From the NCBI GenBank assembly GCA_947173495.1, contig CAMWFQ010000007.1, forward strand, positions 124,001-188,000: 64,000 bases of DNA, written 5' to 3'. The position numbers and the translations under genes were made by a program. Shown here piece by piece: positions 39,685 through 53,552 of this stretch. Source of the stretch: an uncultured Lachnospiraceae bacterium. Lineage in GTDB: Bacteria; Bacillota; Clostridia; Lachnospirales; Lachnospiraceae. Every line of letters begins with the position of its first letter. Within the stretch, counting starts at the first letter, position 1. The notes under the pieces are model-generated. The model made no database searches. It was given only the letters and a program-made list of their open reading frames with translations, and was not told the origin of the DNA.

Positions 39685-39722
39685 AGTAACAGGCGTTTTT
39701 GTACAGGAAGGACGAATATCGT

Positions 39723-41297
39723 ATGAAAAAAGCACTTGTAATCGGCGCTGGTCCTGCGGGGCTTACTGCGGCCTATGAACTTCTGACCAGCTCAAAAGAC
39801 ATTGAAGTTACTGTATTTGAGGAGAGTGACTGCTTCGGCGGAATCTCCAAAACCGTAAATTATAAAGGGAACCGTATGGATATGGGCGGCCACCGGTTTT
39901 TCTCCAAAATACCGGAGGTCAATGAGTGGTGGGACAAGATGCTTCCCATGCAGGGCGCTCCTACCTATGACGATATTATTTTAAACCGTCCCATGCCTCT
40001 TACCAAAGGCGGTCCGGATCCCGAAAAAGAAGATCGGGTAATGCTCACCAGGCACCGGGTATCCCGTATTTATTTTGATTCCAAATTTTATGATTACCCG
40101 ATTTCCCTGAAACTGGAAACGCTCAAAAATTTCGGTTTTCTTACCACCATGAAGGTAGGCTTCAGTTATCTGGCCTCTCTGATCCATAAACAGCCTGAGG
40201 ACAGTCTGGAAAATTTTTATATCAATCGCTTTGGCCGTAAGCTCTACTCCATGTTTTTTGAGTATTATACTGAAAATCTCTGGGGGCGCCATCCCAGTGA
40301 AATTGATCCATCATGGGGTGCGCAGCGCACGAAAGGGATGTCTATCATGGCTATCCTGAAAGACATCATCGAAAAAAAACTGAAAAAGAAAAACCGGAAG
40401 GTTGAGACCTCCCTCATTGAAGAATTTAAATATCCCAAATTAGGTCCCGGTCAGCTCTGGGATGTCACTGCCGCAGAAGTCGAAAAGCTGGGCGGCACAA
40501 TTCTCAGGAATGCCAGAGTAACTAAGATTCACAAAAACCCGGATAACATGATCACCTCCCTTACCTATGAAAAAGATGGGCAGGAATTCACTGTAGAAGG
40601 AGATTACTTCATCTCTTCCATGCCTATAAAGGATCTGGTCGCCGGTATGAATGACGTGCCTGCAGATCCTGCCAGGATTGCGGCCGGACTGCCTTATCGC
40701 GATTATATGACACTGGGGGTTCTGGTTCCCAGGATCAACTTAAAGAACAAGACCGACATGAAAACTGTGGGAAACATTGTCCCCGACTGCTGGGTATATG
40801 TCCAGGACAGAAATGTGAAGCTGGGCCGTTTCCAGATCTACAACAACTGGTCGCCCTACATGATCAGAGATCTGGAGCATACCATATGGATCGGTCTGGA
40901 ATATTTTGTGAATGAAGGCGATGAATTCTGGAATATGACGGAAGAGGAATTTTCCAAAGTGGGCGTGGAGGAAATGATCCGTCTGGGACTGATCGACAGC
41001 CCTGACAGCGTCATCGACACCCATATGGAAAAAGTCAAAAAAGCCTATCCCGCTTACTTTGACACCTACGATGAGATCGAGACCCTGACAGCCTACTTAA
41101 GCACCATAGATAATCTCTATTGTGTGGGCCGCAACGGTCAGCACCGCTACAACAACATTGATCACTCCATGGTCACCTCCTTTGAGGCCGTCACCAATAT
41201 TATCACCGGCCGAAAGGATAAATCCCCTATCTGGAACGTCAACACTGAAAAGGAGTACCACGAAGAAGCTTCCAAAAACGAGGCGGAGATCGATTAA
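39723..41297 (+). CDS. FAD-dependent oxidoreductase, UDP-galactopyranose mutase / protoporphyrinogen oxidase-like fold
   Basis: This 524-residue flavoprotein opens with the dinucleotide-binding motif [16 protein letters not shown], then [22 protein letters not shown], typical of a large group of surface-glycan flavoproteins related to UDP-galactopyranose mutase and amine oxidases. The C-terminal FAD contact [20 protein letters not shown] is clear. It is soluble. The ATG at 39723 is preferred over 39699. It is a single-gene unit with its own promoter and a 21-bp terminator. A second, shorter relative is encoded at 58339-59592. The substrate is unknown: sugar-nucleotide or lipid-linked sugar isomerisation are possible. 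Confidence 0.85.
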
Positions 41298-41344
41298 CCT
41301 AAGCAATCGAGCAGGGGAAAGCCTCCCCTGCTCGATTGCTTAGG
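41298..41344. terminator. Strong bidirectional terminator
   Basis: A perfect 21-bp inverted repeat (41298-41318 with 41324-41344) encloses a 5-nt loop. It starts directly after the plus-strand flavoprotein stop and ends 3 bp before the stop of the convergent radical SAM gene, so it closes both transcription units. Confidence 0.88.
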
Positions 41345-41347
41345 CCG

Positions 41348-42328
41348 TTATTTTCGGAACAGAGACTGCCTTGCTCCGTGGTTGGCCGCTCTGTGTCTGA
41401 GCGTATCGTCTACCACGTCCATCCGAAGCCCGGCGTCAATGAAATCACAGTATTTGCAGAAGTCATAATCTCCCCTGCTCTTTCTGATAGCCTGTCGGAG
41501 ATTCCTGTAGGCCTGACTGTTCCACGCCTCCCTAAGAGGCGTCACTTTCAGATCCGCCAGAGTTGAGGTCTCAAAATTATCGCAGCAGCAGATCCCCATT
41601 CTGCCGTCGGGAAAGATAAACATATCCGTATATGGCATCAGACAGGTTTCCTTAATAATTTTCTGCGTATTCTGCTTATTGGGCGCGCTGCCCGCCCGGT
41701 TGGTCAGAACGGCATCCATATAACGCATCTGGAACAGGAGTTCCACATTCTGAAACTCTTCCTGATGCGCCATGGCATACTCATAAATTTCTTTTACATT
41801 ATCGTGAAGCTTCATATCCCTGCAATAATTATTGATAATCAGCTGATCCACATAAGGAATAATTTCCTTCACCTTATCAACTGTGAGCAGAAGTCCGTTT
41901 GTAGAAAGAAAGATAAAACTGTCTGGCAGCTGTTTTCTGCAGTAGCGGTGAAACTCCACGATTCTTGTATCCAGAAACGGTTCATTATTTCCGTATAAAG
42001 TCAGATGTCCCTTATATTCCCAGTCGTGAAGCTGGTCGATAATGCTGTAAAACAGCTCCTCCTCCATACGCTTATAGGGGCGCTTTTCTGCATTTTTGTT
42101 GGCAGTACAGAAGGAACAGGTACTGTTACAGCGGTTGATGGTTTCCAGATTCACCACCAATGGCTGGGGAGGCTCCTCATCTTTCAGAAAATACTCAATA
42201 TACCTTTCCTGCAGCTTGTTTCTGGTCAGAAACTGAAGCTTCAGATAACTCTCAGAAGAAAGCCTGGGAAATCTCTTCTGAAGATTCCATCCCAAAGTTC
42301 CTCCGAAATTATGAAATTTAACTGACAT
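41348..42328 (-). CDS. Radical SAM / SPASM-like protein
   Basis: The 326-residue enzyme has the radical SAM cluster motif CNSTCSFC (Cys67, Cys71, Cys74), then LTLYGNNEPFLD, FIFLSTNGLLL, and a C-terminal Cys-rich region (KETCLMPYTDMF, GICCCDN, DFCKYCDF) that fits a SPASM-type auxiliary cluster. The N-terminal 55 residues are basic and may meet membrane or substrate. Members of this fold modify peptides, sugars or cofactors, and the target here is unknown. It is the last gene of the CotH/VTC operon, 44 bp after DUF4956. GGAGAAAG precedes the ATG. It could modify a glycan component handled by the same operon. Confidence 0.88.
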   Translation of the reverse strand: MSVKFHNFGGTLGWNLQKRFPRLSSESYLKLQFLTRNKLQERYIEYFLKDEEPPQPLVVNLETINRCNSTCSFCTANKNAEKRPYKRMEEELFYSIIDQLHDWEYKGHLTLYGNNEPFLDTRIVEFHRYCRKQLPDSFIFLSTNGLLLTVDKVKEIIPYVDQLIINNYCRDMKLHDNVKEIYEYAMAHQEEFQNVELLFQMRYMDAVLTNRAGSAPNKQNTQKIIKETCLMPYTDMFIFPDGRMGICCCDNFETSTLADLKVTPLREAWNSQAYRNLRQAIRKSRGDYDFCKYCDFIDAGLRMDVVDDTLRHRAANHGARQSLFRK

Positions 42329-42372
42329 TTCTTTCTCCTTCTCTTTATTTAAATAAATTTATCTGACAACAC

Positions 42373-43047
42373 TTAAAATGTAACCTCTCCATCATGGGAT
42401 ACCAGAGAAACATTCACAACCCCGTCCATCCCTGAAAGCTTTTCCACAAGCTCATACTCCTGCTTTACCCGCACCTCAATTACCAGATTGCAGTTTTCAG
42501 CCGTGATATTCCTGGACTTCACTTTATAGTGTCTGCAGTGTTTCTCTACAGTCCGGACAAAATCCGGTTCCATCTTTATATTGCGCAGATTGGCTATCAG
42601 AATCATGGAGGCCTTTCCCACAGGAAGCCGGTCCAGAACTATGACCAGAATCGTTAATATGGCAGACAGAATGCAGGCCACCTCTGTCATTCTTGCCCCG
42701 CAGCAGATTCCCGCCGCTATGGACCAGAACAGAAAGCACAGATCCATGGGTTCCTTTACCGCTGTCCTGAAACGAACAATGGAAAGGGCTCCCACCATCC
42801 CCAGTGAAATCACGATGCTGGACTGGACTGCAATAATAATGGCGGCTGTGATCACCGCTGTTACTGCTATGGAAATATTGAAATTCTTGGAATAGAACGT
42901 TTTGGGGGTAACCATCCGGTATACTGCAAAGATATAGCAGGCAATTCCACAGGTAATTGTCAGTATAGCGGCCACATAGGTCACCGAAACGTCTCCGCTG
43001 GTATAGTTGGAAATCAAATTATTCATAAAAAGATCCACCGCGTTCAT
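42373..43047 (-). CDS. DUF4956 membrane protein, copy 1
   Basis: This 224-residue protein has about four to five membrane helices in its first 140 residues and a small cytosolic alpha/beta tail. The core motif SIVISLGMVGALSIVRFRTAVKEP (core GMVGALSIVRFRTA) defines the DUF4956 family. The tail (LRNIKMEPDFVRTVEKHC, NLVIEVRVKQEYELVEKL) looks like an ACT-like domain. Members are commonly encoded beside VTC-domain proteins, as here (VTC stop 91 bp upstream). It is nearly the same length as a second copy at 45737-46411. GGAGGATTAAA precedes the ATG. It may be a channel or membrane anchor for the VTC enzyme; the function is unestablished. Confidence 0.92.
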   Translation of the reverse strand: MNAVDLFMNNLISNYTSGDVSVTYVAAILTITCGIACYIFAVYRMVTPKTFYSKNFNISIAVTAVITAAIIIAVQSSIVISLGMVGALSIVRFRTAVKEPMDLCFLFWSIAAGICCGARMTEVACILSAILTILVIVLDRLPVGKASMILIANLRNIKMEPDFVRTVEKHCRHYKVKSRNITAENCNLVIEVRVKQEYELVEKLSGMDGVVNVSLVSHDGEVTF

Positions 43048-43097
43048 TTTAATCCTCCATGCTAATCTCCGTGCCAGAGCCTCAGATTGCCGGTTGA

Positions 43098-43122
43098 AAA
43101 ATAAGGTCGTCAGACTTATTTT
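43098..43122 (-). terminator. Hairpin between VTC and DUF4956 (copy 1)
   Basis: An 8-bp stem (43098-43105 with 43115-43122) with a 9-nt loop lies in the 91-bp gap; with a one-base bulge it extends by three pairs. There is no T-run in the minus direction, so it may be a processing or attenuation signal rather than a terminator. Confidence 0.35.
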
Positions 43123-43138
43123 CAGCCTGAAATCCTTC

Positions 43139-43837
43139 TCACCGCACCATGAACTTCCTGCAAAGATAATACTTGGAAAAGGTACTCGCCCGCAGTCCGC
43201 TTAACTGCAGTACACTGTATATTTCATCCGGCAGAAAGCTGTCATATTTGACCTCCATCAGAGCCTGTCCCGTCGGCATGACGCCTCTTCCTGTCGCTTC
43301 TTTCTCAAAAAACTTTTCCGGCTCACTGATAGAAATGAGATTGCTGTCAAAGGTCACTCTCACATTGGCATCCCCCTGCCTGTACACATAGGGAATCCTG
43401 TCGTAATCCACAATCACAGCCGGTCTCATCAGCTTTACGGCCATAAGATATGCCAGCCTGCGCAGGAGCGCCTGCTTCTCACCTATCTCTCCGGGGATCT
43501 CACCCTTCATCAAAGAAACGCACTGTTCCAGAGTAATTGTGCAGATCTCCTTCCGGGTCTTTCCCCGCTTTTTCTGCTTCATCTCCAGGCTGATCCGGCT
43601 CTGACTGTGATTATAAATCCGGATCCGGTATTTTTCCCGATCGTCTACACCGTTCTCATTATCATAATAGCAGCTGTTATCATAATCATCAAAATACAGA
43701 CTCCTGATATGATAGCTCCCGCCTTGCCCGACATGGATATCCTTTGCGGCGACCATACCTATTTTAGCATCTTCTATCATAACCTGTCCATAAGTTAATG
43801 GATATTTATATTCATGCCTGTACTGTACTTCTTCCAC
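43139..43837 (-). CDS. VTC-domain polyphosphate polymerase-like protein, copy 1
   Basis: This 232-residue soluble protein has the tunnel-fold triphosphate-binding VTC domain: HEYKYPL, HIRSLYFDDYDN, EKYRIRIYNHS, LEMKQKKRGKTRKE, VIVDYDRIPYV, RVTFDSNL and MEVKYDSFLP. The charged residues expected to line the polyphosphate tunnel (Lys, Arg, Glu) are kept. In yeast the Vtc4 VTC domain makes polyphosphate; bacterial members are little studied. A GTG start has AGGAGG 8 nt ahead. It lies between CotH and DUF4956 and has a second copy at 46451-47122. Confidence 0.93.
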   Translation of the reverse strand: MEEVQYRHEYKYPLTYGQVMIEDAKIGMVAAKDIHVGQGGSYHIRSLYFDDYDNSCYYDNENGVDDREKYRIRIYNHSQSRISLEMKQKKRGKTRKEICTITLEQCVSLMKGEIPGEIGEKQALLRRLAYLMAVKLMRPAVIVDYDRIPYVYRQGDANVRVTFDSNLISISEPEKFFEKEATGRGVMPTGQALMEVKYDSFLPDEIYSVLQLSGLRASTFSKYYLCRKFMVR

Positions 43838-43863
43838 GCCCTGAGCCTCCTGATATACGTATC

Positions 43864-45750
43864 CTACTCTGCCGTCCAGATCCCTTCAATCACCCGGTTC
43901 CTGTCTATTAGTGTACCGTCTGCAACCAATTCCCCTGTATCCACATCAAAGTATCCCTCGAACCGGTAGCCTTCTTTTTCATAAGAAGGGAGATTCTGTA
44001 ATTCTTCTCCCTCTTCCACCCAGTAAAACAGCGTCTGATTGTATCCCTGATCCAAAAACTCGGCAGGGTTACGCACTTCCACAATACAGAATTCTCTTTC
44101 CTCCAGCCAAAGCTTATCCAGAAAGGCAATTTTTCTGCTCATAAAATCCCGGATCACATCAATGTGGCTCTTTAATGTGTCAAATCTGCGATAATCTTCT
44201 GCATCCGGATATTCCAGATCAGATGGCACTGTAAACCACCAGTCCTTCCTCTTGCTGTGCCAGCGGAAGGCATCCAGGGACGCGGAGCGCCCGATCTGAT
44301 CTACGTGTTCCCCTATTTCTTCTTTCAGTATTTCCAGATATTTCCCGCGAAAAACGGTTTTATAGAGTTCCTTTACTTTTTCCTGAAATTCAGGATGGTT
44401 CCACATGGCCGACATCCAGCGATTCTGATTGTTATTATCCTCCGGCCTTGACATGGCAACCACTCCGGTAAGCGCCTCGGGCACGCCGTACATCGGCGTA
44501 TTCACATTGGTCATGATCCCATCGAAGTCCCAGGCGGGTCCCGAATACCACAGAGAATCTTCATCCTTTAAGGCATAGGCAAACTGGCTTGTAATTCCAA
44601 TGTCGTGATCTCCCGACAGCTCCTCCACCAGCCAGGCCTCCGCAAAGGACTGAAGGTCTATCAACTCCCCCAGGGACTTTCCGCTTACAGAGCTGATCCC
44701 ATCCTCCGCATAAAGCGCACTCTCCACGTCATTCAGTCTCGCTTCCACCTGCGCTCTGTCTCTTTCGGAAATGCCCTCTCCATGCATGATAAAGACCTGT
44801 CCCCGCTCGGTAACAATCTGCGTGGGATCCTCTCTTGCTCTGAAATCCAGTTCCATTTCAATATACCAGTGATCCTTCAGTGAAATCTCAATCCTGTTCT
44901 CTCCCACTTCAACTGCCTCGGTAAGAAGATACAGTCCCTGATACTCTCCGTTTAAATACACTTCCACAAATTCGCCCTGAGGCTCATAGGCATCAATACA
45001 CTCATAAGCCAGATCCCGGATAATCTTATTCCTGATATAAGCGCCATCTGTCGCATTGGCAAGCAGATTCCACTTCACCGCAGGCTCCATTCCAAACAGC
45101 TCTTCCGGCCGTACCAGTGAAAAGGTAAACGGCTTTTTGGCGAGCTCTGCTGTGAGATTTCCCCTCACCTTAAATACATCCAGGTCGCTTTTACAAATAC
45201 TGTTCCCCGCCGCGTCAAAAATTTTAATTTCTCCGATCTCAAGATATTGTCTGTTTTTAAACTCTTCTATACTCAGCAGATCGTCCTTTGCCTCCACTGT
45301 CACAAAAGCCGCGGGAAGATTTTCGGATGCCAGCACCTGCATCTCCCTCTCGATCAGAGAATGTCCATATCTGCCTTTCACCTTCAGACTGTGAAATTCC
45401 TCTCTGCCCGCATCCCTCCATATGTCTTTATCTCTGTACAGAACCCCGTCTATCTCCAGTTCTCCATAATACTCCGGGTAATGAATCACAAATTCATTTT
45501 CCTTCCCCGAAAAACAGGAAGGAACAAAAAGATACCAACAGGTATCCGTCTTATCCTCCCAGGGTACCAGTTTGACGCCGGAAGATGCCAGGCTTCCTTC
45601 CAGATAAAAGCCTTCCACGATACGTTCTGCATAATCCGTATTCTGAATGGATGTTTTTATAGAAATCAAAAGCACCAGGCAGGCGCCTGCCACCAATACC
45701 GCACGTATTCTGTTCACTCTCTGCCACCTTATTTTTCTATGAACGCACAT
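43864..45750 (-). CDS. Membrane-anchored CotH-family kinase with surface repeat
   Basis: This 628-residue protein has one N-terminal membrane helix (about 16-33), a beta-rich region to about 150, and a CotH kinase-like domain (about 170-540). Signature features are FKVRGN, AKKPFTFSL, DGAYIRNKI, YLNGEYQGLYLLTEAVEVG, ELSGDHDIG and GPAWDFDG, which include the metal-binding Asp residues. The last 55 residues (EKEGYRFEGYFDVDTGEL, then VIEGIW) resemble an internalin B-type repeat. CotH of Bacillus phosphorylates coat proteins with ATP, whereas this form faces outside, so its phosphate donor is puzzling. The start (ATG at 45750) overlaps the DUF4956 gene by 14 bp. Confidence 0.92.
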   Translation of the reverse strand: MCVHRKIRWQRVNRIRAVLVAGACLVLLISIKTSIQNTDYAERIVEGFYLEGSLASSGVKLVPWEDKTDTCWYLFVPSCFSGKENEFVIHYPEYYGELEIDGVLYRDKDIWRDAGREEFHSLKVKGRYGHSLIEREMQVLASENLPAAFVTVEAKDDLLSIEEFKNRQYLEIGEIKIFDAAGNSICKSDLDVFKVRGNLTAELAKKPFTFSLVRPEELFGMEPAVKWNLLANATDGAYIRNKIIRDLAYECIDAYEPQGEFVEVYLNGEYQGLYLLTEAVEVGENRIEISLKDHWYIEMELDFRAREDPTQIVTERGQVFIMHGEGISERDRAQVEARLNDVESALYAEDGISSVSGKSLGELIDLQSFAEAWLVEELSGDHDIGITSQFAYALKDEDSLWYSGPAWDFDGIMTNVNTPMYGVPEALTGVVAMSRPEDNNNQNRWMSAMWNHPEFQEKVKELYKTVFRGKYLEILKEEIGEHVDQIGRSASLDAFRWHSKRKDWWFTVPSDLEYPDAEDYRRFDTLKSHIDVIRDFMSRKIAFLDKLWLEEREFCIVEVRNPAEFLDQGYNQTLFYWVEEGEELQNLPSYEKEGYRFEGYFDVDTGELVADGTLIDRNRVIEGIWTAE

Positions 45751-46411
45751 CGCTTTCCTGCGCTAATATGGAAACCGCTGTAATACCGTCAAGCTCTGAA
45801 ATCCTGTTTACCAACTCTTTTTCCTGCCGGGTCCTTATCTCTATGATCAGATCCATCCCGCCTCCGGTGAGATTTTTGGATTTCGTCTTATATCCTTTTG
45901 TGTATTCCTTCACACAGTTCATGATCTCATCCTCCGCTTCTTTAGCGGAGGTGTTGACGATCAGCAGATACGGACTTTTTCGCGCCGGGAGCATATCCAG
46001 CAGACAGATTCCGACGGTTACCAGCACTGCCAGAAAAATGGCTACCTTATAAAGTCCCGCTCCGCATATAATTCCTGTTCCAATGGACCAGAATAAAAAC
46101 AAAAGATCCATGGGATCCTTGATCGCTGTGCGAAACCGGACGATAGACAGCGCCCCAACCATACCCAGAGAGATCACAATACTGGACTGCATCGCCAGAA
46201 TAATGCCTGCTGTAATCACCGAGATAATCGACATGGATACATGGAAGCTCTTACAATAAAATGTACTCTGACAGGAAAGCCTGTACACCAGATAAATATA
46301 CACCGCCAGGGCAAGCGTCATGCCCAGCGTCACCAGAATTCTGGTACTGGACATATCCGAATAGGAAAATCCCTCCAGCACCGACTTTTTTATCACATCA
46401 CCATAGTTCAT
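45737..46411 (-). CDS. DUF4956 membrane protein, copy 2
   Basis: The 224-residue protein has the same build as copy 1: membrane helices, the family core GMVGALSIVRFRTA, then an ACT-like tail (DEIMNCVKEYTKGYKTKS, GGGMDLIIEIRTRQEKELV). The start at 46411 has GGGGATTA 5 nt ahead; the frame to 46432 lacks one. It follows a VTC gene by 39 bp and overlaps the CotH start by 14 bp, so CotH translation is probably coupled to it. Copies 1 and 2 are clearly homologous but diverged outside the core, so the duplication is not recent. Confidence 0.92.
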   Translation of the reverse strand: MNYGDVIKKSVLEGFSYSDMSSTRILVTLGMTLALAVYIYLVYRLSCQSTFYCKSFHVSMSIISVITAGIILAMQSSIVISLGMVGALSIVRFRTAIKDPMDLLFLFWSIGTGIICGAGLYKVAIFLAVLVTVGICLLDMLPARKSPYLLIVNTSAKEAEDEIMNCVKEYTKGYKTKSKNLTGGGMDLIIEIRTRQEKELVNRISELDGITAVSILAQESDVRS

Positions 46412-46450
46412 CTTAATCCCCATTTCTATCAATCTGACGCCGGAATGATC

Positions 46451-47122
46451 TTATATCATCCTGGAATAGCTGTATTTGGAAAAGGATGTTCTCCGCAGCG
46501 TCCCCACCTGCATCGTCCGCAAAAGATAGCCCGGCAGAAATTCATCATATTTTACCTCCAGCACATGCATCCCCGAAGGCAATAATGGTATTCTCGCTAT
46601 TTTTTCCTCCAGGAACTCACCTGGCAGAACGCTTCCTCTGATGTTTCTGTCAAAGGTAATCCTCACATTTCCCCTGGGTTCCACGAAAGCCGTTCTGTCA
46701 TACTCCACGATGGTTTTGGGAAACATACCATGCATTTTCATTTCACAGTAAAACTCTTTTTCAAGGTCAGAGGCGCTCTCACTGAATGCAGGCGTCTTTC
46801 CTTCCATATACAGGCGGCATGCCTCTTCTGTAATCTTACAGCCTTCCTTCCGCGTCATTCCCCGAAGCTTGCTCTTTTTCTCCAGCCGGATCCGGTCTGT
46901 CTGTGCATTATAGATACGAATCCGGTATTTATGTCTGTTGTCCGCCCCATCCTGATTTTCCTTCAGGCAGGTATCCTGCAGATCGTCGAAATACAGGCTC
47001 CTGATGGTGTAAGCATCTCCCACCTGATTTTGATCCATTTTCATAAGCGGAAGCAGACGGCCGCGAAGAATTTCCAGTTCTGCGTCTGAAACTTCAAATT
47101 TTAATTCCTGTCTATACTTCAT
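46451..47122 (-). CDS. VTC-domain polyphosphate polymerase-like protein, copy 2
   Basis: This 223-residue protein has the VTC-fold motifs YRQELKFEV, TIRSLYFDDLQDTC, KYRIRIYNAQTD, LEKKSKLRGMTRKEG, IVEYDRTAFV, RITFDRNI and LEVKYDEFLP. It is homologous to copy 1 (43139-43837) and also lies directly ahead of a DUF4956 gene. The ATG at 47122 has AGGAAAAATA ahead and overlaps the end of the preceding gene by 11 bp, so it is coupled to that membrane protein. No membrane helix is present; DUF4956 may provide the anchor. Confidence 0.92.
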   Translation of the reverse strand: MKYRQELKFEVSDAELEILRGRLLPLMKMDQNQVGDAYTIRSLYFDDLQDTCLKENQDGADNRHKYRIRIYNAQTDRIRLEKKSKLRGMTRKEGCKITEEACRLYMEGKTPAFSESASDLEKEFYCEMKMHGMFPKTIVEYDRTAFVEPRGNVRITFDRNIRGSVLPGEFLEEKIARIPLLPSGMHVLEVKYDEFLPGYLLRTMQVGTLRRTSFSKYSYSRMI

Positions 47123-49055
47123 TATTTTTCCTGAAAAATCCAAACTGTATCCCGTTATACTGAAACTCCTCATGTAAATAGAAATGGTCGGTCACATCCG
47201 GATAATAGTTCTGCATATACCACAGGGAAGAGAGAGAACAGAAAAACCATTCCTGATCCTCCAGCAGATTCCGGACCTTTTCCATAGTATCCAGCGGCAT
47301 GTTCAGATACGACCACTCTGTCGTATGCAGATGGGTATCCCGGTCTATCAGCGACAAAAGCTCCGGCACACCCTGCCCAAAAGCAACGGCATCAGGAGGG
47401 ACCTGGACATATACATACTGTGCAAATTCCTCCAGGTCATCCATCTTCCAGATCGTTTCCGCCGAAGTTTTCCATGCCTTTGGCATGGAATATACACAGT
47501 CAAATGCCATAATGAATAAAATAGCAGTTGTTATAATCCTGAGTGAAAGAAGCAGAAAACGATTGTCTTTCTGAAACACAGGCTCTTTTTTTTCTTTCCA
47601 TTCCAGATAACTGTCCTGGCACTTTTGCAGAAGCGCCGCCTGAAGGGTCAGCATCAGAAACAGCGTGATAAACATGCAGCCTTCCGCCGGCCGGTTGATA
47701 TAATAGAGCATCAGCCCCAGACTCATAACTCCCAGAAGAAAAAAGAAGGGTTTCTTTCCTTTTTCCTCCTCCTTCGGGAAAATCACCTGCAGCAATGCCG
47801 GACTGACCGCCCCCAAAAGCAGCACCGCCGTTCCCGCCCATGCATGGGACGCATCCGGAAGGGGAAGTTCGATATTCTCAATATAGTCTCTGTCGGAAAT
47901 AAGCGGAAACAAAAACTCCCTCATATTCAGGACCGGTCCTTTCGCCAGGAGATTATATCCGTTGATCACGATATAGGCCAGCACCCCAGGCACGATGGCA
48001 TAGAGGGCCAGCATGCGGAAAAGCAGTAAAATTTTCCGGACGGAAAGTCCTTTCCCATCCATGATTTGCTGCACCCACCGGTAAAGTCCAAAGGAAAGCA
48101 TGGTAACAATTCCGACTTCTGTAGACCAGATAAAGGAAAGCGTAATAAGAATAACAGCTGCAATGTTATAGTTTTTCCCTTTTTTATATTCCTGCAGCGC
48201 CAGAGCTGCCAGAATTACCGGAAAAATCATGCGATGCGGATGCACCTGCAGATAAACCCCGCCCTGCATCAGCATAAAATACTGTTCCCCAATGGCAAAC
48301 ATACCGAGATAAAAGATCAGATCACTTTTGGCAAAATAGTTCAGGAGATACAGATATACCAGAATAGAAATTCCTGCAAGAACAGCTGTTACGATAGAAA
48401 TTCCCGTCAGATAATTGATATGAAAGCATCTGTGCAGGAACTTAAGCAGCGGCATATAGAGGATCCCATAATGTCCGTACAGAGACTGCATATCCTTACT
48501 GTACGGAATCAGCCAGCAGGCATTGATGATGCTGTTGGTATAGGCATGACTGTGATAAAGGCCGCCCTGTACTTCACGGAAAACGTTGGGCGCATAAAAC
48601 TGGACAGAGGTTCCTGCAGTAAACAGCAGGGCTGCCAGAACCCGGATCCTTTTTCCGGCTCTCATAAACCTCCCGCCATAGTTCTTTCTCAGGATAAAAA
48701 GACAGAGCAAAACGCCGGCGGTCATCAGTGTAATCCACACAGGAAACGGAAAATATCTGCGGATCAGCTCCGTCTCCTCCAAAGGATCCACTGCATCCGT
48801 CTCATTCACATAAAATGCCGCCATCCATCCTGCCAGACAGACAATGGCCAGAATACTCCCCGCCTTTTCCCATCTCCGGTTCAGGCCTTTTTCATATCTT
48901 CCGGTCAGAAAATATGCAGCCAGTGTTACCAGTGCAAAAACCACACATGCACTAACAAAAAACTCCATATTGTGAAGCGGAATCATATTGCGCATCATTG
49001 CAAACAAAAAGAATGCGGCGCTTCCCGCCATAAAACTTTTTACTTCTCTGGTCAT
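47112..49055 (-). CDS. Large GT-C-like polytopic membrane protein, 647 aa
   Basis: About 13 membrane helices occupy most of the protein. An outer tail of about 120 residues (VYSMPKAWKTSAETIWKM, SLIDRDTHLHTTEWSYLNM) ends it. Between them is YSKDMQSLYGHYGILYMPLL with charged and aromatic residues in the kind of loop that forms the GT-C active site. I do not recognise a named family with certainty; a membrane glycosyltransferase of the dolichyl-phosphate-sugar-using class is the best match. Its start overlaps the DUF6020-like stop by 4 bp (ATGA), and its own end overlaps the VTC start, so the three are translationally coupled. Confidence 0.78.
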   Translation of the reverse strand: MTREVKSFMAGSAAFFLFAMMRNMIPLHNMEFFVSACVVFALVTLAAYFLTGRYEKGLNRRWEKAGSILAIVCLAGWMAAFYVNETDAVDPLEETELIRRYFPFPVWITLMTAGVLLCLFILRKNYGGRFMRAGKRIRVLAALLFTAGTSVQFYAPNVFREVQGGLYHSHAYTNSIINACWLIPYSKDMQSLYGHYGILYMPLLKFLHRCFHINYLTGISIVTAVLAGISILVYLYLLNYFAKSDLIFYLGMFAIGEQYFMLMQGGVYLQVHPHRMIFPVILAALALQEYKKGKNYNIAAVILITLSFIWSTEVGIVTMLSFGLYRWVQQIMDGKGLSVRKILLLFRMLALYAIVPGVLAYIVINGYNLLAKGPVLNMREFLFPLISDRDYIENIELPLPDASHAWAGTAVLLLGAVSPALLQVIFPKEEEKGKKPFFFLLGVMSLGLMLYYINRPAEGCMFITLFLMLTLQAALLQKCQDSYLEWKEKKEPVFQKDNRFLLLSLRIITTAILFIMAFDCVYSMPKAWKTSAETIWKMDDLEEFAQYVYVQVPPDAVAFGQGVPELLSLIDRDTHLHTTEWSYLNMPLDTMEKVRNLLEDQEWFFCSLSSLWYMQNYYPDVTDHFYLHEEFQYNGIQFGFFRKNNEV

Positions 49056-50821
49056 TCAGACATCTCCTTACGCTCGTCTCCGTTATCGCTATTCCCGCTG
49101 CTGTCCCGTCCTTCCCCGTTTTCCTCTCCACTGCTGCCATCCTCTGTTTCTGATACGGCACTTTGTCCCGGAAAAGATTTTCCGCATATCAGCAGGTACA
49201 AAGGGGTACACAGAAACAGCGCATACACATATCGGAAAGAAAATGCCACCGGTGTTGCAATCATAATGGACAGCCATACTCCCAGAGTGGGCATCACACC
49301 GGCCAGTCCTCTGTAATTGTGTCTGGCCAGACATATAAAGATGGTTCCTATCATGATCCATACAAAGACAGCCGCACTGATGTAGTGCTTCGGTTCTGCA
49401 AAATCTTTAAAGGATATATCCAGATAGTAGTCAAAATAGTCACTCATAAAATATTCCACATTGCCAAAATGAAAATTACAGATATAGGCAGTGGAAGAGC
49501 TCTCAAAAATATCCCAGAATCCCATAGTGCTGAGCAGATAAGCCTTGATTGCCTTTACAGGATTTTTCACCGCCAGATGCAGATACGTTTTTATAAATGC
49601 TCTGGCATTTTCCTCCAGACCGGACCGGTCAAATTCAGGGGAAAATTTAATCGTATCGGCAACAATCGGATTATACAGTTCCTTCCAACGCTCAAGCGGC
49701 AGCATCTGCTCCAGGACTTCTCTGTCCTCCTCCTCCACTATCCCATCTGTGGATACGATATAAGCAGCCTGCTGAAGGGGGATCCCCAGACTTTCCGTGG
49801 ACCTGTTCACATTATACCCGCATCGGTCATAAACCGGCCCCTGGATCATCCCGCACACAAGCAAGACAAGAAAGGACGCAGCTCCTATTTTAACCGCCGC
49901 CTTTCTGTTTTTCAGGCAGATCACCGTGATTGCTGCAGAATAAAAAGCCGCCACATAAATTCCGTTGTTTCTGAGAAATATAATCAAAATACTGAGCACA
50001 CAATACTGCGTCAGCTCTCTGGGAGAAATATCCCAGGAAACCTCCCCGGCCATCGTTTCCCCGGAAGTTCTGCCTGCAGCGCCTTTTTCAGAAAAAATAT
50101 GGTACAGGAAAATGGAAAAGTCAAATACCGCCAGGGAAAACAACGTATCCTTCCACATGGATACCCCGTAAAACGGATACAGCGGAAAGAGAGCAAATAC
50201 CAGCAGACATAATATGACAAACCCTTTATGAATTCCCCATCTGTAACAGCGGTAAACAAACCATGACAGGGCCGCCGCCATCAAAAGAGTCTGCACCACC
50301 GTAAACAGCTTCAGTCCGCCGTACTCTCCCGCTCCTGAGAAGGCGCCGGTAACCCAAAACATCAGTCTCCAGATCAGCGTATAAAGAATCGGATTATGAT
50401 TATCCAGCGTATCCTTATATAATGCCATGGTAATAGAATCCACTGTATCCGAATAAATTCCTCCCGGCCAGTAAGAAGGAAGGTAGGGAAACCACATCAG
50501 CATAATCAGCGCAAATGAACCTGCCAACACCCAGATCCCTTGTCTGAAGCTTCTTTTTTCCTGAAAAAGTACCGGCCCTGCCGCTGAAAAAACAAACGCC
50601 GCCGCTTTCATCAGAATATAGATAACCGGCACTGTTCCCAGCCATGCAATTCCATCCACAAAATGAAAATCCGTGACATATACATTTTCAATGGTAGACA
50701 GATCCGTCTGTCTGTTAAAAATATGCCGGCTGATAATCACCATTGCCGAAAACAACATTGCAAAAACAGCATACCAGATATTGATTTTCTTCAGATACTT
50801 TTTATAGATACCTTGAACCAC
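49052..50821 (-). CDS. DUF6020-like polytopic membrane protein
   Basis: This 589-residue protein has about 12 membrane helices. The outer loop MWFPYLPSYWPGGIYSDTVDSI has the acidic Ser-Asp-Thr motif, and HNPILYTLIWRL follows, as in DUF6020 members of Clostridia, which look like GT-C enzymes. The C-terminal tail is acidic and Ser/Asn-rich. I take the GTG at 50821 as start because GAGGAG lies 6 nt upstream and a promoter -10 ends only 9 bp above the alternative TTG at 50863, leaving that codon no leader. It is the first gene of the CotH/VTC operon. Confidence 0.8.
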   Translation of the reverse strand: MVQGIYKKYLKKINIWYAVFAMLFSAMVIISRHIFNRQTDLSTIENVYVTDFHFVDGIAWLGTVPVIYILMKAAAFVFSAAGPVLFQEKRSFRQGIWVLAGSFALIMLMWFPYLPSYWPGGIYSDTVDSITMALYKDTLDNHNPILYTLIWRLMFWVTGAFSGAGEYGGLKLFTVVQTLLMAAALSWFVYRCYRWGIHKGFVILCLLVFALFPLYPFYGVSMWKDTLFSLAVFDFSIFLYHIFSEKGAAGRTSGETMAGEVSWDISPRELTQYCVLSILIIFLRNNGIYVAAFYSAAITVICLKNRKAAVKIGAASFLVLLVCGMIQGPVYDRCGYNVNRSTESLGIPLQQAAYIVSTDGIVEEEDREVLEQMLPLERWKELYNPIVADTIKFSPEFDRSGLEENARAFIKTYLHLAVKNPVKAIKAYLLSTMGFWDIFESSSTAYICNFHFGNVEYFMSDYFDYYLDISFKDFAEPKHYISAAVFVWIMIGTIFICLARHNYRGLAGVMPTLGVWLSIMIATPVAFSFRYVYALFLCTPLYLLICGKSFPGQSAVSETEDGSSGEENGEGRDSSGNSDNGDERKEMSE

Positions 50822-50871
50822 TGTCCGCTCCTCATCTTGTGTTCTCTGCAGAATCTCTGTCAATCTTATCT

Positions 50872-50900
50872 ATTATACACCATTTTTCTGCATTTGTAAG
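50872..50900 (-). promoter_or_regulatory. Promoter of the DUF6020-CotH-VTC operon
   Basis: On the minus strand a perfect TATAAT (50872-50877) is preceded after exactly 17 nt by CTTACA (50895-50900), which matches 4 of 6 positions. It gives a leader of about 45 nt to the GTG start at 50821. No competing promoter is evident within the operon. Confidence 0.7.
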
Positions 50901-50954: not shown

Positions 50955-52010
50955 TTATTCTGCCTCTTCCAGTTTCTCATAAATGATCCTCACATTGTCA
51001 TCCCAGGATTCATATCCCTCCTGCCCTCTTCTGTCAGGGATATTCCCCGAAAAAGACAGAAATTGTCCTAATGCGTCTGTAAATTTACATCCTCCCCAGT
51101 AATTTAAATGAGACTCGTCGTTAAAATCAAGTTCAAAGTCAAGACCCAGTTCTTCATAGGCTTCATTATAATTGACAAAAGGAACTCCTTCCTCCTCTGC
51201 AATCTGTTCGATTCTGTTGTAAGTCCTCATATCCTCTCCGGTTATCACATAGGGAGCGGCAATCAGAATCAGCTCTGTATCCTTTTTCCGGGTCAGCGCT
51301 ATGATCTTTTTTAAATACTTTTCGGATTTTGGCGTCAGGCCATCCGCGCGCTGCTCCGTAATCTCCGGTATCTGCTGCGGAATCCTGTTCCAGTAGGGAT
51401 TATATCCCTTAAAAGCCTCTTTGATCTCACTGTCCCAGAAAAAGTTCTGGAAATCCTCCGCCTCCAGATCATCATATCGGCTATGGTAAACCGCAAAAGA
51501 TGGAAAATATTCATGAAGCTTGGCCGGTTCAACGCTTGCTGATAACATCTGCAGTTTATTGATTGAAAATCTCATTCCATAAATATTCTCCGCCATCCAG
51601 TGGTACTGATAATCCTCCTTAAACCTGGCCGGCGCATACACATCCAATACCACCGCCCTGGGCGTCTGATACTTGTACAGTTCCTTCAGGTAATAATAGG
51701 TCATCCACAACGGCTGCTCTGCGCCGCTGTAATCGTAAGCGGCAATTCCATATTTTTCCCACAAAAGAGCCGTGTTCACATTACAGTGAATGTGACTTGT
51801 TCCCATCATCACCACATCTATGGCGTTTTCAGGCTGCCAGTACAGACCGGCCAGCTGATTGATCCCGTGGTCTGATTTAATGCTCAGAACACAGGCTGCC
51901 AGATAGACCGTTATCAGCAGTAACAGGATAAATCCGGCCTTTGTCAGCCCTCTTCCGATTCGTCTTCTTCCTGAATTTTTTTCTTCTGAAGATTCCTTTT
52001 TCCTTTCCAT
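50955..52010 (-). CDS. SGNH-like membrane-anchored protein (DltD/AlgX-like), second pair
   Basis: The 351-residue protein has a basic N-terminus, one membrane helix (about 24-43) and an outer SGNH-type domain: DVVMMGTSHIHCNV holds the nucleophile-position Ser, VVLDVYAPARF and LILIAAPYVI are middle strands, and FNDESHLNYWGG gives the Asp-x-x-His catalytic pair. It follows an MBOAT gene by 63 bp, the normal arrangement for O-acyl transfer outside the cell. The ATG at 52010 is used because GGAGA lies 6 nt before it. It is not closely related in sequence to the first SGNH-like protein at 33169. Confidence 0.83.
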   Translation of the reverse strand: MERKKESSEEKNSGRRRIGRGLTKAGFILLLLITVYLAACVLSIKSDHGINQLAGLYWQPENAIDVVMMGTSHIHCNVNTALLWEKYGIAAYDYSGAEQPLWMTYYYLKELYKYQTPRAVVLDVYAPARFKEDYQYHWMAENIYGMRFSINKLQMLSASVEPAKLHEYFPSFAVYHSRYDDLEAEDFQNFFWDSEIKEAFKGYNPYWNRIPQQIPEITEQRADGLTPKSEKYLKKIIALTRKKDTELILIAAPYVITGEDMRTYNRIEQIAEEEGVPFVNYNEAYEELGLDFELDFNDESHLNYWGGCKFTDALGQFLSFSGNIPDRRGQEGYESWDDNVRIIYEKLEEAE

Positions 52011-52073
52011 ATCCATTCTCCATGCAAATGCATTCCGTTCCCTATACCGGTCTGCACACATCGCAGTCCACTC

Positions 52074-53552
52074 TTAAAACTGCATATAAATAAACTGCTC
52101 TGTATGATAGCCCGGTCCATATATTCCGAAAATGAGAATTGTCATAATCAACAGATAAAAAGCAAAATATCTGCCTGCATTTTTCTTCTGCTGAATAGCA
52201 GCAGGAAGATGAATCCTTTTCCTGCTGCAAAACTCATCCACCGCCCACACCACTAAAATTCCGATCAAAATCAAGCTGATTTCCGCAATTCCAAGCTGAA
52301 GCGATAATGCCGTTTCCTTCCAGTCTGCCGGCCTGATCCCTGTGGTAAACATCCGGGTCACGTAATCCACAGCAGCATCCAGCGAATCCGCCCTGAAAAA
52401 GATCCAGGCAAACGCCACCTCCGCAAAAGTGAGCAGCCGGCCGCCTTTTATATGCCATCCGGCCTTCCGCATAAGCTCCTCCAGAACAGAATAGATTCCG
52501 TGAAGCAGCCCCCACACCACAAAATTCAGTCCGGCTCCATGCCACATTCCGCATACCAGAAAAACGATCATTGTATTTCTACATTTGATAAGAGTTCCCC
52601 GACGATTGCCGCCAAGGGGAATATAGAGATAGTCTCTCAGCCAGCTGCTCAGGGAAACATGCCACCTGCGCCAGAACTCCCCGATTCCGGATGCACAGTA
52701 AGGCGCCCTGAAATTCTGAGTAAGCTTTATACCGAACAGCTCCCCGCATCCCACTGCAATATACGAGTAACCTGCAAAATCACAGTAGATCTGTATCGTA
52801 TAGAAAAAGGCCCCCGCCGCAAGCCAGGCACTGTCAAACCGTGCCGGATCTCCAAAAATCTGGTTTACTGTCACCGCCAGCCGGTCGGCCACCACCATTT
52901 TCATAAAATAGCCCCATAGTATATAGGTAAAAGCCAGCGACAGTCTTCCTCTGTGAAAAGGCTTCACTTCCTCCAGCCTCCTTAACTGGGGAAGAAATTC
53001 CTGTTCTCTCTCAATAGGCCCGCTCACCAGCTTCGGGAAAAAGGCAAGATAACAGCTTAAATACCAGAAGTTCTTTTCCGCAGGAGTCTTTTGCCTGTAC
53101 ACATCTGCCAGATATCCGATTGCCTGAAATAAGTAAAAGGATATCCCCACCGGCATTACCATACGCTCCAGAGCACTCCAGATTCCCGGACTTTCCGTGC
53201 CGGATGCACCCGCCTCCCCTGATGCGCTGCCTGCTGCCTGACAGACAAAAGAAGCAAAAGCCGGGACATATTTATAAATGCACAGAAGGATTATATAACT
53301 GCAGATCCAAAATGCCAGCCAGCCTTTTGCAGATCTCTCACGCCCCCTTTTCCACAATCCCTCTATCTGCATTCCGCCCGCCCAGGTACAGACTGAAATG
53401 AGAAGAAGTACCGCCAGCGCGCGCAGATCGATCCTTGCGCAGAAGCAGAGACTTGCCCCCAGTAGCAAAAAGGGCCGGCATTTCGCAGGCAGCAAAAAAA
53501 ACAATACAAAAACAAGTCCCAGAAAAACAGGGAAAAATACTGACACAAACAA
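52074..53552 (-). CDS. MBOAT family O-acyltransferase, second pair
   Basis: The 492-residue polytopic protein has the MBOAT landmarks MPVGISFYLFQAIGYLADVY, FFPKLVSGPIEREQEF, YCDFAGYSYIAVGCGELFGI, FWRRWHVSLSSWLRDYLYIP, LGGNRRG and the invariant His in VCGMWHGAGLNF. It is the AlgI/DltB-like group that works with an SGNH protein, here the next gene. A TTG at 53552 is used, with GGTGGTGA about 8 nt ahead; a GTG two codons later is an alternative. It lies in a separate unit from the first MBOAT and shares limited sequence with it, so the two probably act on different sites. Confidence 0.93.
   Translation of the reverse strand: MFVSVFFPVFLGLVFVLFFLLPAKCRPFLLLGASLCFCARIDLRALAVLLLISVCTWAGGMQIEGLWKRGRERSAKGWLAFWICSYIILLCIYKYVPAFASFVCQAAGSASGEAGASGTESPGIWSALERMVMPVGISFYLFQAIGYLADVYRQKTPAEKNFWYLSCYLAFFPKLVSGPIEREQEFLPQLRRLEEVKPFHRGRLSLAFTYILWGYFMKMVVADRLAVTVNQIFGDPARFDSAWLAAGAFFYTIQIYCDFAGYSYIAVGCGELFGIKLTQNFRAPYCASGIGEFWRRWHVSLSSWLRDYLYIPLGGNRRGTLIKCRNTMIVFLVCGMWHGAGLNFVVWGLLHGIYSVLEELMRKAGWHIKGGRLLTFAEVAFAWIFFRADSLDAAVDYVTRMFTTGIRPADWKETALSLQLGIAEISLILIGILVVWAVDEFCSRKRIHLPAAIQQKKNAGRYFAFYLLIMTILIFGIYGPGYHTEQFIYMQF

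Follow-up and report, generated by a model that had tools for sequence, protein, structure and literature searches.

CotH, VTC and DUF4956 in described systems

Genes for CotH kinase-fold proteins, for proteins with a VTC polyphosphate-polymerase-like domain and for DUF4956 membrane proteins are an already described group, and its publication (PMC7112168, PMC2879425; here and below, statements on cited papers refer to their available portions) agrees with the co-occurrence given as known in an earlier reading of the present locus made without database searches (the sequence-only reading). The locus lies in a 64,000-nucleotide stretch of DNA (the window) on contig C7 of the genome of an uncultured Lachnospiraceae gut bacterium (G000; 4.58 Mb, 52 contigs, 97.4% complete), where, within a cluster of surface-glycan genes, open reading frame (ORF) calling and Pfam place CotH, VTC and DUF4956 genes contiguously on one strand, with one CotH between two VTC-DUF4956 pairs. 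To the described group we add a survey of the pairing, a swap of CotH for Cthe_2159, a relationship of DUF4956 to MgtC and an apparent origin of the window's layout by cassette merger. The reading that we favor, at a probability of about one half, is that VTC and DUF4956 would be the two separate parts of a polyphosphate synthase-translocase that works for the cell surface, and CotH would act on the outside. It draws on gene anatomy, co-occurrence, residue conservation and synteny, from which we infer the direction of the rearrangement, the polymerase activity, export through DUF4956, and the substrate and donor of CotH.

In Gram-positive pel operons, CotH, poly-phosphate polymerase and DUF4956 genes occur as accessory genes (PLoS Pathog 2020, PMC7112168). 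As in the window, the three are contiguous in an exopolysaccharide setting, but pelDEADAFG and DUF4832 adjoin them, whereas the window has an MBOAT-SGNH pair, a radical SAM gene and a GT-C-like/DUF6020 block; a Pfam scan of 17 window genes, the direct neighbors on both sides included, gave no pel gene and no DUF4832. The available text of that paper proposes regulation by protein phosphorylation and does not mention polyphosphate export. Among the loci that we fetched for comparison (L-numbers; genomes carry G-numbers, and order and genus are those of the host), four have this Pel-type neighborhood by clustering, with PelG, PelF-like and DUF2194 proteins confirmed by Pfam in L106.

Tables published in 2010 (PLoS One, PMC2879425) and 2024 (PMC11677781) list a locus that has a single CotH and two VTC genes. 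In this locus, Clostridium perfringens NELoc-2, two VTC genes are each followed by a gene of 222-226 amino acids, and one CotH comes next; the genes after CotH (a product of ~685 amino acids, HEAT, glycosyltransferase) match by order and size those of 10-11 fetched loci of the type VTC-DUF4956-CotH-hypothetical-HEAT-GT2 (Pfam for L099). Unlike the window, NELoc-2 has a resolvase between the pairs and other downstream genes. Its short "tubulin" genes are probably DUF4956 genes, a comparison made by order and size, not by sequence.

Among better-characterized proteins, the yeast VTC complex (Vtc4/Vtc3/Vtc1; PMC9911596) shares with the window a homologous polymerase domain, the same tunnel residues and an adjoining membrane partner. 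It differs in that neither window VTC protein has a Pfam match to an SPX or DUF202-type domain, that the window's membrane partner is separate and MgtC-like, and that the far side of the membrane would be the outside of the cell. Spore-coat CotH of Bacillus subtilis (PMC7821199; structure 5jd9) is of the same fold family as the window CotH and has the catalytic aspartates, while the window protein is predicted to be exported and stands beside VTC-DUF4956. In the available open-licence PubMed Central literature on these families, we found no biochemical test of the CotH-VTC-DUF4956 group or of polyphosphate as a donor; the other papers that name DUF4956 do no more than mention the gene in their text or in tables of expression data.

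VTC and DUF4956 form a tight, not absolute, pair

The gene-neighborhood survey that the sequence-only reading had proposed was run on 147 genomes of the order, with searches for VTC, DUF4956 and CotH, and found VTC and DUF4956 in an identical set of 97 genomes. DUF4956 lay within 1.5 kb of 127 of the 135 VTC matches, and VTC within 1.5 kb of 127 of the 134 DUF4956 matches. From the order we fetched loci for 40 of the 61 pairs without CotH and 40 of the 62 pairs with CotH outside G000. Across the fetched loci, 145 adjacent pairs had VTC followed by DUF4956 on the same strand; 60 of these overlapped, and the gap was 0-30 bp in 52, 31-100 bp in 25 and larger in 8. Another 80 loci from named organisms, found through DUF4956 and analyzed with our own gene calls plus a six-frame check of 15 loci, contained DUF4956 in 80 cases, VTC in 75, CotH in 64 and Cthe_2159 in 11. 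The pairing is tight, not absolute.

For the 87 loci with CotH, protein-distance matrices of VTC and DUF4956 correlated at 0.86 (largest of 300 shuffles, 0.11), and the rank partial correlations were 0.77 for VTC-DUF4956, 0.08 for VTC-CotH and 0.21 for DUF4956-CotH. A specific coupling of CotH to DUF4956, suggested by a linear partial correlation of 0.46, was rejected, as the rank-based value was only 0.21, and 0.05 for one of the gene orders. No natural fusion among VTC, DUF4956, CotH and Cthe_2159 was found in the protein set examined.

The eight unpaired VTC matches comprise one each in G022, G088, G095, G102, G109 and G121, all of which also have an unpaired DUF4956, and two pieces of a single VTC copy in G127 (C126:6438-7085), broken by stop codons or in pieces. 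In G022, G088, G095 and G102, which belong to one genus, VTC and DUF4956 are on separate contigs, and CotH lies within ~5 kb of DUF4956 on the opposite strand. Three named loci (L141, L165 and L185) have DUF4956 and CotH without VTC in six frames, with Cthe_2159 also present in L141, and may be VTC-less versions.

A profile of the bacterial VTC proteins matched the structure of yeast Vtc4 (3g3q, 7.5e-22). Counted by hand from the printed alignment, VTC2 residues K11, R71, R73, K87, K96, R147, R160, E195 and K222 correspond to Vtc4 K200, R264, R266, K281, K294, R361, R373, E426 and K458, of which we take those other than R264, R266 and E426 to have a tunnel role. Mapped on 8i6v/3g3q, the tunnel residues are invariant in a 44-sequence alignment, and of the 147 bacterial VTC proteins with a length of 215 amino acids or more, 146, the two window copies among them, retain each of the equivalents of K200, R264, R266, K281, R361, R373, E426 and K458; the sole exception, from L056, differs at K458. 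In yeast, R264A/R266A/E426N is the inactivated enzyme used for the cryo-electron microscopy structure (PMC9911596), and Arg264/266 have been termed essential (PMC8749416). The sequence-only reading had envisaged VTC proteins lacking nucleotide and polyphosphate binding as a case against it; judged by alignment, VTC1 and VTC2, which are 39% identical, have their tunnel residues intact. VTC as the only polyphosphate maker was ruled out by the finding of PPK1 in G000 and in 76 of the 97 VTC genomes of the order. Since PPK1 is present in G000, VTC is not required there as a general polyphosphate kinase, which argues for a special purpose of VTC.

By hydropathy, DUF4956 would cross the membrane several times and end in a soluble C-terminal portion, and G86, R92, R94 and G113 are invariant in an alignment of 54 proteins. 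The two window copies are 45% identical. DUF4956-1 matched Pfam MgtC below threshold (19.4 bits; gathering cut-off, 31.4), DUF4956-2 had no listed MgtC match, and 4 of the 23 rows of an MgtC search were DUF4956 genes, again below the cut-off. A single hhalign comparison of DUF4956 with 19 proteins from the MgtC search (one of them, from L269, probably a wrong ORF) gave a probability of 96.4 and an E-value of 1.1e-9 over 207 columns, including the ACT-like part. By these profile comparisons, DUF4956 is related to MgtC distantly but along its full length; it differs from MgtC in scoring below the Pfam MgtC cut-off, in its RFR motif (the invariant R92 and R94) and in its usual VTC neighbor. Sequence searches of the PDB for solved relatives returned none for one DUF4956 protein and a best E-value of 0.34 for the profile. 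Among named records, the closest DUF4956 proteins were from Lachnospiraceae. One DUF4956 copy (G001:C25:22017-22301) is interrupted by stop codons or in pieces.

CotH and Cthe_2159 as third partners

CotH lay within 5 kb of at least 66 of the 127 pairs. Among the matches listed, 71 of the 75 CotH genomes had VTC (Fisher p 9e-15), and 61 of the 127 pairs had no CotH within 8 kb; many of the latter carry Cthe_2159, and the dedicated polyphosphate-CotH link of the sequence-only reading is not supported. CotH was the immediate neighbor in 89 of the 145 pairs in the fetched loci, which is no unbiased rate, 40 loci having been picked for CotH and 40 for its lack. Protein clustering found a cluster-3 protein in 26 of the 40 loci without CotH. 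The Pfam check covered the 27 cluster-3 and similar proteins that immediately follow DUF4956 (23 in CotH-less order loci and 4 in named loci), and every one of them is PF14262 Cthe_2159. CotH is a frequent but replaceable third partner, for which Cthe_2159 swaps in. For the Cthe_2159 family, a published description gives carbohydrate binding, membership of the pectate-lyase superfamily and a distant relationship to a cluster of adhesins; the structure nearest to that cluster binds pectic acids (PMC9210967). Glycan genes were found in 16 of 40 CotH-type and 1 of 23 Cthe_2159-type order loci (p 0.0025, or 0.005 without the two query loci), with queries drawn from CotH-type loci and G000, a choice that favors CotH-type loci.

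G000 itself holds two further cassettes. One (C17, 1-5000; L014) combines CotH (804 amino acids), Cthe_2159, VTC and DUF4956 in this order, so that the two third partners coexist; the other (C17, 26657-31641; L015:6657-11641) has VTC, DUF4956 and two successive CotH genes in what looks by eye like a surface-glycan cluster. The arrangement also occurs on plasmids (loci L224 and L225): a Pseudobutyrivibrio xylanivorans plasmid carries CotH-VTC-DUF4956 within a cluster of glycan genes that also encodes radical SAM and pyruvyl transferase proteins; the cassette on a Planococcus maritimus plasmid reads VTC-DUF4956-CotH. Two-component-type cluster genes occur somewhere in 39 of the 80 order loci, one pair being confirmed by Pfam (L088). 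In 22 of 77 order loci, for example L088 and L092, such a gene directly precedes VTC; 13 of these are among the 40 loci with CotH and 9 among the 37 lacking it.

The window CotH aligned to 5jd9 ("Spore coat protein H"), in which the aspartate pair is at chain positions 224 and 247; position 224 is probably D228 of B. subtilis CotH. Among the 111 CotH proteins of at least 400 amino acids, D408 is present in all and D383 in 108. By hydropathy, all 87 VTC-linked CotH proteins have a hydrophobic stretch within their first 60 amino acids, 26 have a C-terminal one too, and 11 have a lipobox-like motif. A dead or non-exported CotH, another counter-case of the sequence-only reading, is not what the sequence suggests: the aspartate pair is kept and an N-terminal hydrophobic stretch is present. 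We also compared these 87 proteins with CotH away from VTC (20 loci, two of them near a DUF4956, with 19 CotH called). A distinct active site of VTC-linked CotH was rejected, with no clear difference in catalytic motifs. The differences seen were in the last residue of the motif WDxN (N in 55% of the 87 linked proteins) versus WDxD (D in 84% of the 19 unlinked ones), where the window protein has WDFD, and in E278, kept in 91% of linked versus 58% of unlinked CotH. A CotH with no VTC match nearby is also found in G000 (C6, 111658-112773; L016), a few kb from a NeuB-family gene identified by Pfam.

Candidate roles and apparent origin of the double layout

In the reading that we favor, cytosolic VTC would polymerize the gamma-phosphate of ATP into polyphosphate, and DUF4956, as its MgtC-like membrane partner, would carry the chain to or across the membrane. 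The membrane channel of yeast VTC contains basic residues (PMC9911596), and DUF4956, with its two invariant arginines (R92 and R94), may likewise be a polyphosphate conduit. A third, secreted protein would handle the product at the surface: CotH in surface-glycan loci, Cthe_2159 elsewhere and sometimes both. In the window, the task would most likely be phosphate decoration of a surface glycan or of surface proteins, parallel to MBOAT-SGNH acylation. In Alg and Dlt systems, an MBOAT-SGNH pair brings acyl groups through the membrane to a transferase outside, and we offer this pair as an analogy for a phosphate version. A more specific form, to which we give only tentative credence, is a transmembrane phosphate relay in which VTC polyphosphate, passed through DUF4956, would be the phosphoryl donor for extracellular CotH acting on glycan or protein; at the surface, Cthe_2159 could instead accept or bind the chain once exported.

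Several observations weigh against a synthase-translocase with CotH as its outside partner. In the order survey, 8 of 135 VTC and 7 of 134 DUF4956 matches were not near a partner; in 5 of the 80 named loci (L141, L147, L162, L165 and L185, L162 being cut by a contig end) VTC was not found in six frames, and for a Hymenobacter plasmid Pfam gave no match to the protein encoded ahead of DUF4956, with no recognizable VTC directly there. The invariant R92/R94 pair may face the cytosol, and to our knowledge MgtC proteins are not established channels. Among the matches listed, 65 of 150 CotH rows were not within 6 kb of VTC, and 4 of 75 CotH genomes lacked VTC. Coupling to CotH is weak once the pair is accounted for (0.08 and 0.21, as above), and where CotH precedes VTC, as in the window's second cassette, the rank partial correlations were 0.21 for VTC-CotH and 0.05 for DUF4956-CotH. 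The bias of the glycan queries counts on the same side, as do the likeness of catalytic motifs in CotH beside and away from VTC, the retention of D383 in only 89% of either group in the alignment made for that comparison, a lower share than in the 111 proteins above, and the use of ATP by B. subtilis CotH in vitro (PMC7821199).

Some of these points fit an arrangement, possible if doubtful, in which the polyphosphate is the end product at the surface, exported as a polyanion that Ca2+ or Cthe_2159 retains, and CotH acts separately with ATP or another nucleotide on surface proteins or glycans. The 61 listed pairs without nearby CotH, the many of them with Cthe_2159, the carbohydrate binding described for that family (PMC9210967) and the shared catalytic motifs all favor it, but CotH is tied to the presence of VTC in 71 of the 75 listed CotH genomes and adjoins 89 of the 145 pairs, albeit in loci chosen by CotH status. 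The retention of every polymerase tunnel residue, the E426 equivalent included, bears on another alternative: if VTC bound or turned over a triphosphate signal in the cytosol and DUF4956 acted like MgtC on another membrane protein, with no export, a pure sensor would not need those residues. We regard such a regulatory pair as unlikely, even with the relationship of DUF4956 to MgtC over most of its length, ACT-like part included, the two-component-type genes in 39 of 80 order loci and the existence of DUF4956 without VTC in its favor. The sequence-only reading had proposed two VTC-DUF4956 machines dividing labor around one CotH as a selected unit. Both pairs do retain all tunnel residues despite the missing CotH, and NELoc-2, with two VTC genes, two "tubulin" genes and one CotH (PMC2879425), offers a parallel. 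The synteny described below indicates a cassette merger instead, and we consider a selected double unit very improbable: the window's own 2 of the 127 order-survey pairs were the only ones within 8 kb of each other, with no such case in any other genome of that survey; in six of the seven genus loci where pairs cluster (L239-L245), CotH genes are at least as many as pairs; and the orthologs of pair 1 in sister species have a CotH of their own. What stands of that earlier interpretation is the VTC tunnel, the CotH aspartate pair, the N-terminal hydrophobic stretch and the tight packing; the double machine, the dedicated CotH link and the proposal that the GT-C-like protein and the DUF6020 protein make the substrate are not supported.

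How a kinase outside the bacterial cell is supplied with phosphate is an open question, to which VTC-DUF4956-CotH is a widespread candidate answer. Together with the exchange of CotH for Cthe_2159 and the kinship with MgtC, the pairing provides a working hypothesis for DUF4956, as the membrane half of a bacterial polyphosphate synthase. If true, the relay would be the phosphate counterpart of MBOAT-SGNH acylation and a general solution, in many Firmicutes, for kinases where ATP is absent.

In the genus, DUF4956 was found in 35 of 37 genomes, and 15 loci were fetched, seven of them for at least two DUF4956 matches within ~11 kb. L243 and L244 have the order MBOAT, SGNH, CotH, VTC2, DUF4956-2, radical SAM, FAD gene (convergent), a long gene (a rhamnosidase in L243), a second CotH that is Pfam CotH (CotH'), VTC1, DUF4956-1 and then four orthologs of the window genes 37973, 36778, 35944 and 34484; the second cassette of L242 reads GT-C-like, CotH', VTC1, DUF4956-1. 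In the window, those four genes directly follow the FAD gene, and GT-C-like, VTC1 and DUF4956-1 lie between SGNH and CotH; DUF6020 is an addition and CotH' is absent, with no match to CotH' in G000 in a search without a positive control. Because sister species hold complete CotH-VTC-DUF4956 cassettes, CotH' included (synteny of L242-L244), the double layout looks like a merger of two neighboring cassettes with one CotH missing. Cassette 1 (GT-C-like or another gene, CotH', VTC1, DUF4956-1), beyond the FAD gene in sister species, would have moved upstream of cassette 2 (CotH, VTC2, DUF4956-2, radical SAM) without CotH', a direction taken from the sister loci, not from a tree. The window shows that VTC-DUF4956 pairs can be recombined between cassettes.

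Two other origins were ruled out. Recent tandem duplication of the pair does not fit copies of such low identity (39% for VTC, 45% for DUF4956), each with closer orthologs elsewhere; nor is DUF6020-GT-C-VTC1-DUF4956-1 an inherited block, the GT-C-like gene having other neighbors in L217 and L253. In the genus, this gene (orthologs 65-68% identical) stands away from VTC (L217), before CotH'-VTC1-DUF4956-1 (L242) or divergent from a VTC pair (L253), with no DUF6020 relative labeled beside it in these three loci. DUF6020 was not seen beside it in sister genome G399, where the GT-C-like gene stands away from VTC, which speaks against the two proteins as makers of the substrate. The compared neighborhoods held one weak DUF6020 match (L164, 22%). 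Among the clustered genus loci, L245 has one CotH and two separated pairs, one on each strand, and L240 and L241 have, beside two usual cassettes, one of the order VTC, CotH, DUF4956, with CotH inside the pair.

Features of the window around the two VTC-DUF4956 pairs
Feature	Coordinates	Strand	Basis and remarks
MBOAT O-acyltransferase (DltB/AlgI-like)	52074..53552	-	Pfam MBOAT 1e-25; upstream of cassette in sister loci
SGNH-like partner (DUF1574/GDSL)	50955..52061	-	matches below Pfam cut-offs; syntenic, 66-71% identity in sister loci
Putative sigma-70-like promoter, CTTACA-17-TATAAT	50872..50900	-	10/12 consensus matches; consensus match alone
DUF6020 membrane protein	49052..50863	-	PF19484 7.6e-34; start probably GTG 50821
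Membrane protein, "GT-C-like" by earlier label	47112..49055	-	no Pfam above cut-off, no NCBIfam family
VTC1, cytosolic polyphosphate-polymerase-like domain	46451..47173	-	PF09359 6.1e-38; tunnel residues intact
DUF4956-1, membrane protein with C-terminal ACT-like part	45737..46432	-	PF16316 4.5e-12
CotH kinase-fold protein, predicted exported	43864..45750	-	PF08757 7.2e-33; aligned to 5jd9; Asp383 and Asp408
VTC2	43139..43837	-	PF09359 2.2e-37; tunnel residues intact
DUF4956-2	42373..43047	-	PF16316 6.5e-12
Radical SAM/SPASM protein	41348..42328	-	after DUF4956-2 in sister loci, 88% there
Hairpin, 20 pairs	41298..41344	+	T tail CCGTTATTTT on + strand, facing convergent FAD gene
FAD/amine-oxidase-like gene, convergent boundary and syntenic marker	39699..41297	+	85-91% in seven sister loci

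The minus-strand run from 50863 to 41348 consists of eight ORFs that overlap or are separated by at most 91 bp, and Pfam returned, in order, DUF6020, nothing above cut-off, VTC, DUF4956, CotH, VTC, DUF4956 and radical SAM with SPASM. This agrees with the tightly packed gene order first described, except for the GT-C label, which drew no family support from Pfam or NCBIfam. Judged by eye from the sequence, VTC1 probably starts at ATG 47122, giving an 11-bp overlap with the GT-C-like gene, and DUF4956-1 at ATG 46411; the later start given for DUF6020 was chosen in the same way, because TTG 50863 would fall at about the transcription start. A promoter had been proposed before the run. The consensus match is present and plausible as a promoter, but it is one of five 10/12 matches in the region, where promoter-like sites are only mildly enriched (29 versus 19.3, sd 4.1, in shuffles). 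The 21-bp terminator proposed at the other end is a strong hairpin of 20 pairs; its T tract, however, is on the plus strand, the only strand that the scan lists, a position in keeping with the convergent FAD gene, and the operon strand has none after the stem. The hairpin might act in both directions.

It is doubtful that the operon is self-contained, as first proposed, since it is immediately preceded, on its own strand, by MBOAT and SGNH-like genes, which come before CotH-VTC-DUF4956-radical SAM in sister loci L243, L244/L128 and L129. Of this pair of the Dlt/Alg kind, the MBOAT assignment is clear and the SGNH/DUF1574 matches are sub-cut-off; the MBOAT protein scored 160.8 bits against the DltB equivalog model, which needs 375. 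The radical SAM and FAD genes at the other end are 83-91% conserved in sister loci, and the orthologous VTC, DUF4956 and CotH proteins are ~48-71% conserved.

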